Part shown: piece after piece, positions 291 to 2,468 of the stretch
Layout of the letters: the number at the start of each line of letters is the position of its first letter
Position numbering within the stretch: position 1 is the first letter of the stretch
NCBI GenBank assembly: GCA_012521465.1
Contig: JAAYMI010000038.1
Span: 1 to 32,001 of the forward strand
Length of the DNA: 32,001 bases
Source of the DNA: Bacillota bacterium
GTDB taxonomy: Bacteria; Bacillota; Limnochordia; Darwinibacteriales; Darwinibacteriaceae
Reading direction: 5' to 3'
The notes under the pieces: model-generated
Told to the model about the DNA's origin: nothing
Seen by the model: only the letters and a program-made list of their open reading frames with translations
Database searches by the model: none
Program-made: the position numbers and the translations under genes

Positions 291-590
291 TCATTCCCCC
301 GCGGGCTGTGCAAAGATATACATGGTCTCGCCAGGCTTGACCAGTCCCAGCTCTTCCCGAGCAGCGCGCTCCACATATTCGGGGGACTGCCAATTGGCGA
401 TTTCCTCCTCAAGCTGTTTATTGCGGAGTTCCATCGCGGCAATCTCCCGCTGGAGAGACTCGATTTCCACCCGCAGCTGATAATTGCGATAAGCATTCCG
501 GGCAAAATTGAGCCCAATCCAGATGGCCAGCAGGCAAACAATCACAACCCATGGCTTGGGCCGAAAACGCCGGCGCCGTTTTGCATTCAT
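291..590 (-). CDS. divIC: Septum formation initiator, FtsB/DivIC family
   Basis: This is a 99-aa bitopic membrane protein. It has a basic cytoplasmic N-terminus (residues 1-13, KRRRRFRPK), one membrane segment at about 14-30, and a coiled coil at about 35-68 (ESLQREIAAMELRNKQLEEEI). The C-terminal SPEYVERAAREELGLVKPGE motif is diagnostic for the FtsB/DivIC family. In Bacillus DivIC pairs with FtsL and DivIB at the division septum. The ATG at 590 has the ribosome site AGGAGGGG a few bases upstream. It sits between yabQ and the S1-domain gene, the standard Firmicutes order. Length and motifs are normal. Confidence 0.93.
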   Translation of the reverse strand: MNAKRRRRFRPKPWVVIVCLLAIWIGLNFARNAYRNYQLRVEIESLQREIAAMELRNKQLEEEIANWQSPEYVERAAREELGLVKPGETMYIFAQPAGE

Positions 591-652: not shown

Positions 653-1108
653 CTATTTGCGCCAGCGCAGTCCTGGGCTGAAAATAAACCTTCTCCTGAG
701 GCGGATACTTCTGATTCCCAGACCCAACTCCTGCCCCACCACAAGGGGGAGAGTCACAATAGACCAGGCGAGAGAAGCGATAAAGGTGAGAAGCTTCCCC
801 ACGAGGTCAATCAGCCAGACAAGCAGGGCTACTACTGCCCTGCTCATTGTCAGCCGGTAAAATGCAAATCCTAAGATGATGGCAATTACGACATACCCCC
901 GCAGCTGACCCCAATTGGCCAGGAGCAGATAGCTCACCAGGACAGGTGTGAGGAGAGCCCAGAACATCAGGTCCAGAATGGCCGTGCTCACGAGGCCGGG
1001 ACGGAGGATCCCTCGCAGCACCCGGTAGAAGTCAACCAAAAAGCCTACGGACAACCCCGCCAGGAGGATGATACCAAAGGCATACAGCTGTGCACTGAGA
1101 GATTCCAT
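653..1108 (-). CDS. yabQ: Spore cortex biosynthesis protein YabQ
   Basis: This is a 151-aa membrane protein with hydrophobic segments at about 6-26, 42-62, 66-88 and 90-118, followed by a short basic tail. The N-terminal LSAQLYAFGIILLAGLSVGF and the DFYRVLRG motif after the first membrane segment match the YabQ family. In Bacillus yabQ is expressed in the mother cell and is needed for the spore cortex. Its place between yabP and divIC supports the assignment. No separate promoter is evident, so it is probably co-transcribed with yabP. Confidence 0.88.
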   Translation of the reverse strand: MESLSAQLYAFGIILLAGLSVGFLVDFYRVLRGILRPGLVSTAILDLMFWALLTPVLVSYLLLANWGQLRGYVVIAIILGFAFYRLTMSRAVVALLVWLIDLVGKLLTFIASLAWSIVTLPLVVGQELGLGIRSIRLRRRFIFSPGLRWRK

Positions 1109-1157: not shown

Positions 1158-1442
1158 CTAGCGGAACAAGCGCTCCAGCAGGCCTTTTCCCCGTTTGCTG
1201 AGTGATTCGCCAGTGTATTCCAGAGATTTGATGAAGCCCGTCACCAGCAGATTCGCCTTTTCGAGGTTTAGTTCTTTGATGTGCAAGTCTTCCCCTTGGA
1301 TTATCAAGCCACCTAGATCTGTTTCCAGGGAAATCTCTCGATCATCAAAGCTTTCCACATTCAGTACTCCATCGATTGTTAAGCGCTCCCGCTCCGCGAG
1401 AATCACTTGGTGGCGCAAGGCATTGAGCCGCTTTTCGTCCAT
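1158..1442 (-). CDS. yabP: Sporulation protein YabP
   Basis: This is a small soluble protein of 94 aa from the chosen start. It shows the YabP/YqfC-type pattern: HQVILAERERLTIDGVLNVESFDDREISLETDLGGLIIQGEDLHIKELNLEKA, split here as VILAERERLTIDGV, then VESFDDREISLET, then LIIQGEDLHIKELNLE. In Bacillus YabP acts with YabQ in the mother cell during cortex assembly. An upstream in-frame start at 1463 exists, but the ATG at 1442 has AAAGGGG at 1450-1456 with a 7-nt spacer and gives the normal family length. A CATAGGAT string at 1478-1485 could be a sigma-E -10 element, but I cannot find a good -35. The gene ends in TAG, showing that amber is an ordinary stop codon here. Confidence 0.88.
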   Translation of the reverse strand: MDEKRLNALRHQVILAERERLTIDGVLNVESFDDREISLETDLGGLIIQGEDLHIKELNLEKANLLVTGFIKSLEYTGESLSKRGKGLLERLFR

Positions 1443-1505
1443 AAGAATGCCCCTTTCCCGCATTAGGCAGTTTGTACATCCTATGCAGAATCGGGGCAGA
1501 TTAGA

Positions 1506-2072
1506 CTAGTCGTAGATCTTCCTTATTTCCACGCCTTCTGCAAAGAACGCCTTCACTATCTCCTCGGGCGACTTGCCGTCCTTTGCCATTTTGAAGGCGT
1601 CCCACTGGCTGAGGCCCACCCCATGACCGTAGCCAGTGCCGGTGATGCGCAGCTGTCCGTCGGCGAACTGGAATTGGTCCACGAGAGTGGACTGCATGCG
1701 GGTCGAGTCCAAAGCTAAGCGAAACTGTGGTCCGGAAACCATTTCTGCGCCTTTTGAGCCCTCAATCTTGATTTTCGTGATCCGCTCAGTGGGGCCCCGT
1801 TCTGCGATGGCTATGTTTGAGATCTCGCCCACGTCTATGCCTGCATCTGACAGCATTTTCTGCAGCTCATCTGCATCATACACAGCTTCCCAGGCCTTCA
1901 CGTCATCCGGAGCATATTCATTATCCGGCAGCTCGACGCTTTTGGTAAAGGGCGGTTCCTCCTCCTGGTAATCTAAGCCTTCCTTCGCTTGGCAGGTAAC
2001 GCCACCCGAATAAGCATGGAACCACGCCCGGACATAGCGGTTATCGTAAACCATCACTTCGCCGCGAGTCAT
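1506..2072 (-). CDS. spoIID: SpoIID/LytB-domain protein, C-terminal part of a gene split by an in-frame TAG
   Basis: These 188 codons continue in the same frame as the upstream fragment; the two are separated only by TAG at 2075-2073, and this part opens with an ATG directly after it. The sequence carries the second half of the SpoIID fold: TRGEVMVYDNRYVRAWFHAY, then YSGGVTC, and near the end the family hallmark GTGYGHGVGLSQWDAFKMA. SpoIID cuts glycan strands during engulfment of the forespore, working with SpoIIP and SpoIIM. No ribosome site precedes the ATG, so independent translation would need stop-start coupling. The residues look well conserved, so any disruption appears recent, or it is a sequencing error, or the gene is expressed by reinitiation. 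Confidence 0.82.
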   Translation of the reverse strand: MTRGEVMVYDNRYVRAWFHAYSGGVTCQAKEGLDYQEEEPPFTKSVELPDNEYAPDDVKAWEAVYDADELQKMLSDAGIDVGEISNIAIAERGPTERITKIKIEGSKGAEMVSGPQFRLALDSTRMQSTLVDQFQFADGQLRITGTGYGHGVGLSQWDAFKMAKDGKSPEEIVKAFFAEGVEIRKIYD

Positions 2073-2468
2073 CTACACCGCTCGGCGGATATCATCGGTT
2101 ACTGCCTCGGCGTTGAAAGCTTGGGTTTCGGTGATATTCGTGGACACATCCGCTCCGTACTTGTCTTTGACGCCGCCCGCGGCCATAAAGTCCATGGTAA
2201 AACTCCGCGCAAAAATGGCCTGAGCTGCGTATGCCTCAACAGGCCAGTCAGGGAACATCTCACCTGCCACTACCGCGGCAACATACTCTTCCATGGGCAT
2301 CTCCTTGATTTGACCCGTCTCATGCATATACACCGAGACCTGTGGTTCTTGGTCCAACTCCCGCACGATATTCTCTTCGCTGCCCGACCAGCTGATCAGC
2401 AGCGTTACCGCGGCCACCAAGACCAAGACAAGGCCCAACACAACTCCCTGATCGACCCTGAACTTCAC
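2073..2468 (-). CDS. spoIID: SpoIID/LytB-domain protein, N-terminal part ending at the in-frame TAG
   Basis: The open frame can be extended to 2489, but the GTG at 2468 has GGGAGG at 2477-2482 with an 8-nt spacer and gives a normal signal anchor (membrane segment about residues 8-27). Then come MPMEEYVAAVVAGEMFPDW and PVEAYAAQAIFARSF, the core of the SpoIID lytic transglycosylase, including the glutamate of the AGEM motif (about residue 70) expected to be catalytic. The frame ends at IRRAV followed by TAG; in homologues the chain continues into a T(R/A)G(E/Q)V motif, which here starts just after the stop. A possible sigma-E -10 (TATACACT) lies just upstream, with a poor -35. Together the two parts give about 320 residues, close to the usual SpoIID length. 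Confidence 0.82.
   Translation of the reverse strand: MKFRVDQGVVLGLVLVLVAAVTLLISWSGSEENIVRELDQEPQVSVYMHETGQIKEMPMEEYVAAVVAGEMFPDWPVEAYAAQAIFARSFTMDFMAAGGVKDKYGADVSTNITETQAFNAEAVTDDIRRAV

Follow-up and report, generated by a model that had tools for sequence, protein, structure and literature searches.

An in-frame amber codon in a SpoIID paralogue beside yabP-yabQ looks like a fresh mutation or a sequence error

Introduction

A single in-frame stop codon in an otherwise well-conserved gene raises the question of whether the gene is broken, misread or expressed in an unusual way. This question is posed by a minus-strand gene in a window of 32,001 nucleotides, which is the entire contig C54 of the draft genome of an uncultured, spore-forming member of the Bacillota (G000; 2.52 Mb in 213 contigs). 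An initial annotation, made from the DNA letters, held that a TAG splits a SpoIID gene into two halves that share a frame, with an ATG directly after it. It offered four options: a recent nonsense mutation, an error in sequencing or assembly, suppression, and a two-piece protein made by stop-start translation. The locus was compared with those of relatives, of which G001 is the only genome from the same genus and serves as the nearest reference. The TAG is best read as an ordinary recent mutation or an error in the sequence rather than as a new way of making proteins.

Structure of the interrupted gene and its neighborhood

The coordinates bear out the layout described in the initial annotation (Table 1). 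The gene starts at a GTG at position 2468 and ends at a TAG at 1508-1506; the TAG within it is the single interruption, and the codon directly after that, in the same frame, is an ATG at 2072-2070. The open frame extends upstream to a TTG at 2489. The GTG was assigned as the start by homology: it is preceded by GGGAGG and aligns with the ATG starts of the orthologues in G001 and G005. Counted from this GTG, the gene has 131 + 1 + 188 = 320 codons, and the G001 orthologue is equally long. The two halves keep the family hallmarks, as had been noticed from the sequence, with AGEM in the first and GYGHGVGLSQW in the second. The protein obtained by reading through the TAG is 86% identical to the G001 orthologue, and the 3′ part is 84.6% identical to it, with matching C-terminal ends. 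Because the match to relatives continues unbroken across the TAG, a chance pair of open reading frames (ORFs) is ruled out.

Table 1. Coordinates of the interrupted gene and its neighbors in the window
Feature	Position	Strand	Description
5′ part of SpoIID/LytB-domain gene	2073..2468	-	131 codons from the GTG, with an N-terminal hydrophobic helix and the AGEM motif; followed by TAG
In-frame TAG	2073..2075	-	Takes the place of a Glu codon that is conserved in orthologues (GAG in G001, GAA in G005)
3′ part	1506..2072	-	188 codons, beginning with the ATG (conserved Met) and closed by the true stop TAG; holds GYGHGVGLSQW
yabP, next gene downstream	1158..1463	-	TIGR02892, 92.4 bits (cut-off 75.4)
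yabQ	653..1108	-	TIGR02893, 76.8 bits (cut-off 32)
FtsB/FtsL (DivIC)-like septum protein	291..590	-	NCBIfam FtsB and FtsL models, below cut-offs; same place in G001

The order of the interrupted gene, yabP, yabQ and the divIC-like gene is identical in G001. Reported gene sets of all or most spore-formers include spoIID, yabP and yabQ (PMC3533761). Other spore genes of the genome are open, namely spoIVA and five SpoIIP-domain genes (contigs C96, C173, C87, C41 and C199); together with three SpoIID-domain genes, the latter form an expanded set of engulfment-type hydrolases. At the left end of the window, upstream of an S1-domain gene, the minus strand carries a perfect 12/12 match to the sigma-70 consensus with 17-base spacing (242-214).

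A SpoIID paralogue distinct from canonical SpoIID

The read-through protein belongs to the SpoIID/LytB-domain family by two curated models. It scores 74.4 bits against Pfam SpoIID (PF08486; cut-off 23), with a match over residues 56-148 that spans the TAG, and 170.7 bits against NCBIfam SpoIID_LytB (TIGR02669; cut-off 83.3); the 5′ part alone still scores 61.6 bits against the Pfam model. Against the equivalog model for stage II sporulation protein D (TIGR02870), the read-through protein scores 179.6 bits, below the cut-off of 234.75, and the G001 orthologue is similarly placed at 180.9 bits. The check for a second spoIID proposed in the initial annotation turned one up: a protein on contig C35 passes the same cut-off with 296 bits. 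Its gene is cut at the 5′ end by the contig edge, and it has a counterpart in G001 that is 83% identical. The protein of the interrupted gene is about 30% identical to it. That the interrupted gene is the main spoIID was rejected, since it falls below the cut-off that the C35 protein passes. Judged by these scores, the interrupted gene is a paralogue of SpoIID, and the C35 protein is the canonical SpoIID. The third SpoIID-domain protein of the genome has 597 residues and lies on contig C156.

Structural comparison agrees with the family assignment. A phmmer search of the read-through protein against solved SpoIID proteins gave an E value of 4e-27. The G001 orthologue was modeled with 28 orthologues as input (mean pLDDT 80.7, pTM 0.78), and Foldseek matched the model to C. 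difficile SpoIID (5i1t) with an E value of 2e-21 and a TM score of 0.73 by query length. We take the AGEM motif of the interrupted gene to hold the equivalent of the glutamate E101 of C. difficile SpoIID, in agreement with the alignment to SpoIID. This catalytic residue, on which lytic transglycosylase activity depends, was reported to be essential in the C. difficile protein (PMC6221140).

Most genomes of the family and order carry this paralogue (1506-2468 in the window) next to yabP-yabQ. Its motifs, VVAGEMFPDWP, WFHAYSGG and GYGHGVGLSQWDA, are nearly fixed, and it is distinct from canonical SpoIID. A literature search found nothing on this paralogue or its TAG, judging by titles and abstract openings.

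The stop site in relatives

Comparison with close relatives, which the initial annotation had suggested as a check, found a sense codon at every locus examined. DNA matches to the paralogue are present in 34 of 40 genomes, with the window genome counted, and the loci examined come from 29 relatives. At the TAG position, 27 of the 29 orthologous loci encode Glu, one Gln and one Ala. The view that this position is variable in the family therefore does not hold among orthologues; it does vary between distant SpoIID-domain paralogues, with Lys and Asp in the other two of the window genome. All 28 full-length orthologues are open (0/28 with an internal stop), so the disabling change, as in a pseudogene, is absent from the orthologues. 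This genome and 39 relatives, 40 in all, give 109 SpoIID-domain matches, of which the window gene alone has an internal stop. Conservation of the TAG or of the split, as would be expected for programmed readthrough or a maintained split gene, was seen in none of the orthologues examined. Given GAG in G001 and GAA in G005, one G-to-T change on this lineage is the simplest history. The residue after the TAG position is Met in 23 of the 29 orthologous loci, none of which has the stop; the ATG thus predates the TAG and, as a conserved Met codon, lends no support to stop-start translation.

Some loci call for separate mention. The partial locus L023 (G006:C56) was omitted from the 28-row alignment because it runs into a contig edge. 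That contig ends in a 19-base adapter, presumably of the Nextera type, which was left in the assembly and opens the frame with MCIRDR; this is the only such locus among those examined. Two loci besides the 29, L040 and L041, have Gly and Glu at the TAG position and no stop in the alignment, and no motif-bearing frame was found in them. Genome G018 has two matches to the paralogue (C31 and C25), possibly through duplication or contamination (estimated at 7%).

Selection on the two halves

Decay of the interrupted gene is not detectable. On the branch leading to this genome, nonsynonymous and synonymous changes number 7 and 21 in the 5′ half and 18 and 34 in the 3′ half, with no significant difference between halves (Fisher p 0.45). 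On the G001 branch, the corresponding counts are 11 and 19 for the 5′ half and 9 and 30 for the 3′ half. The 5′ counts cover 7 codons that lie ahead of the probable GTG start, among which one change is reconstructed as passing via a stop codon. The nonsynonymous share of the 3′ half is somewhat higher here than in G001, not significantly (18N/34S versus 9N/30S; Fisher p 0.26). From the site and branch counts, a neutrally evolving 3′ half would show about 120 nonsynonymous changes per 34 synonymous ones, and 18 were seen; by rough arithmetic, the gene has been unconstrained for at most about one-sixth of the branch. Adding the window protein leaves the list of residues invariant among the orthologues unchanged, such that both halves keep every invariant residue. 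The lack of detectable decay means that the TAG is young, or not real, or tolerated. An error, or a gene that still works, would account for it just as well as a recent hit would.

A scan for other internal stops

The rest of the genome was sampled for similar interruptions. A total of 363 ORFs from G001 (80 stretches, 1.6 Mb), selected for divergence mostly at third positions, were set against 60 stretches of this genome plus the window (0.64 Mb), over 111,091 aligned residues. An inner stop was flagged when at least 9 of 20 residues matched on each side, and stops within about 18 codons of a gene end are for this reason uncounted. Nine of the 363 ORFs were flagged. Eight were explained away, and the SpoIID-like gene remains. 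The rejected queries are frames opposite a real gene (L078, L114, L174 and L168), a frame opposite a real gene whose only stop precedes its start (L082), two genes with the stop before the true start (L106, which we take to be DinB, and L179), and a frame running through a tRNA (L162). The same scan in the reverse direction also listed flagged frames in G001, as flags before inspection. In a smaller scan of 136 ORFs, no frameshift-like pairs were seen in this genome.

TAG usage and the decoding machinery

The initial annotation considered genome-wide recoding of TAG unlikely, and the wider comparison leaves it scarcely credible, as is also the case for pyrrolysine. Among 285 reciprocal-best orthologues with matching C-terminal ends, the true terminator is TAG in 108, TAA in 96 and TGA in 81; within the window, TAG ends 11 of 23 such ORFs, with the 3′ half of the interrupted gene counted. 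Release factor RF1 is present (571 bits; cut-off 423). The best match in a search of the genome for PylS scores 25.8 bits against a cut-off of 178, and none passes. This genome gives three such weak matches, and 13 of 14 control genomes also give matches, one of them above the cut-off. Recoding and pyrrolysine were rejected because TAG is the commonest terminator, RF1 is present, PylS is not found above the cut-off, and only one internal nonsense codon is left among the 363 ORFs.

Evidence for a local means of readthrough was also sought. No tRNA with a CTA anticodon was found among the 7 tRNAs read on 61 of the 213 contigs; for the genome as a whole, 30 tRNA matches are listed by Rfam. RNA structure around the TAG shows nothing unusual as a readthrough signal (z +0.61).

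Weighing the explanations

The TAG is probably a recent nonsense allele that arose by a one-base change. In this model, the gene is predicted to encode a membrane-anchored peptidoglycan lytic enzyme of the SpoIID/LytB family, and a recent G-to-T change would have turned codon 132 (Glu) into an amber stop. At least some of the sampled population would truly carry the allele, which would be a loss of function, the product being a 131-residue membrane-anchored stub with AGEM and without the second conserved motif, GYGHGVGLSQW. Restart at the ATG would be possible in principle. The N-terminal membrane helix would be missing from the resulting piece, which would therefore be expected to stay unexported. 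With the canonical SpoIID encoded on C35, the cell may be able to tolerate the loss. The main rival, clearly less probable and still a serious possibility, is that the organism's gene is intact and the TAG comes from an error of sequencing, assembly or strain mixing. The draft is fragmented, with an estimated contamination of 4.01%; a single base differs in an otherwise fully kept gene; and spurious internal stops made by assembly are documented in bacterial genomes in a study whose scope leaves out metagenome-assembled genomes (PMC11017572). Against this, the stop is the sole confirmed one among the compared ORFs, which indicates that the consensus is not noisy, and the smaller scan saw no frameshift-like pair. 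A real allele is favored over an error, given that no other internal stop is left in the part of the genome that was scanned; one event cannot decide between them.

Two further models keep the gene functional. An amber tolerated through some readthrough, by natural or near-cognate suppression, would yield a little full-length enzyme and let selection persist. The apparent constraint on both halves is consistent with this, and in-frame stops under retained purifying selection have been reported to be widespread in bacteria (PMC7918605). It is nonetheless improbable: no relative carries the stop, the scan found no other readthrough gene, the 7 tRNAs read on 61 of the 213 contigs include none with a CTA anticodon, and the RNA structure is ordinary. 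Moreover, a general suppressor would be costly, since TAG is the commonest terminator (108/285). At least as improbable is its more specific form, in which low-level readthrough lowers the output of the lytic enzyme with the whole gene staying under selection; if true, a spore-forming lineage would be using a stop codon as a dimmer. A functional split enzyme, assembled from two pieces made by stop-start translation, is very unlikely. The ATG does follow the TAG directly, and in the G001 orthologue model the break falls where a helix (125-133) ends, ahead of a strand (137-141). However, that ATG is a Met codon conserved without the stop, no relative is split, and no Shine-Dalgarno-like run precedes the ATG when the sequence is read by eye. 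The second piece would also lack the N-terminal hydrophobic helix, and hence an export signal, and the break lies inside one SpoIID fold, parting AGEM from GYGHGVGLSQW. Thus, of the options first offered, nonsense mutation and sequencing or assembly error are supported as a pair, and suppression and stop-start translation are improbable. The case serves mostly as a caution: when a one-base nonsense change arises next to a conserved Met codon, the result can look like designed stop-start translation, and comparison with relatives settles the matter.

Comparison with known systems

The kind of event favored here, a recent nonsense allele, is an ordinary one. In-frame stops with purifying selection were described as widespread in bacteria and mostly of short persistence (PMC7918605). 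Those alleles likewise have one in-frame stop with conserved flanks. Unlike them, the stop described here is private to one genome, so its persistence cannot be shown. Many apparent pseudogenes have been attributed to assembly errors, in an assessment outside which metagenome-assembled genomes fall (PMC11017572), and those spurious pseudogenes likewise present as one internal stop in a draft assembly. Unlike those cases, the scanned part of this genome has no excess of internal stops. The family of the interrupted gene shares its fold and conserved motifs with SpoIID (TIGR02870; structures 5i1t and 4rwr). Unlike canonical SpoIID, the interrupted gene scores under the equivalog cut-off and adjoins yabP-yabQ. 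A family-wide SpoIID paralogue in this position holds modest interest for sporulation biology, and this does not depend on whether the present copy is broken.
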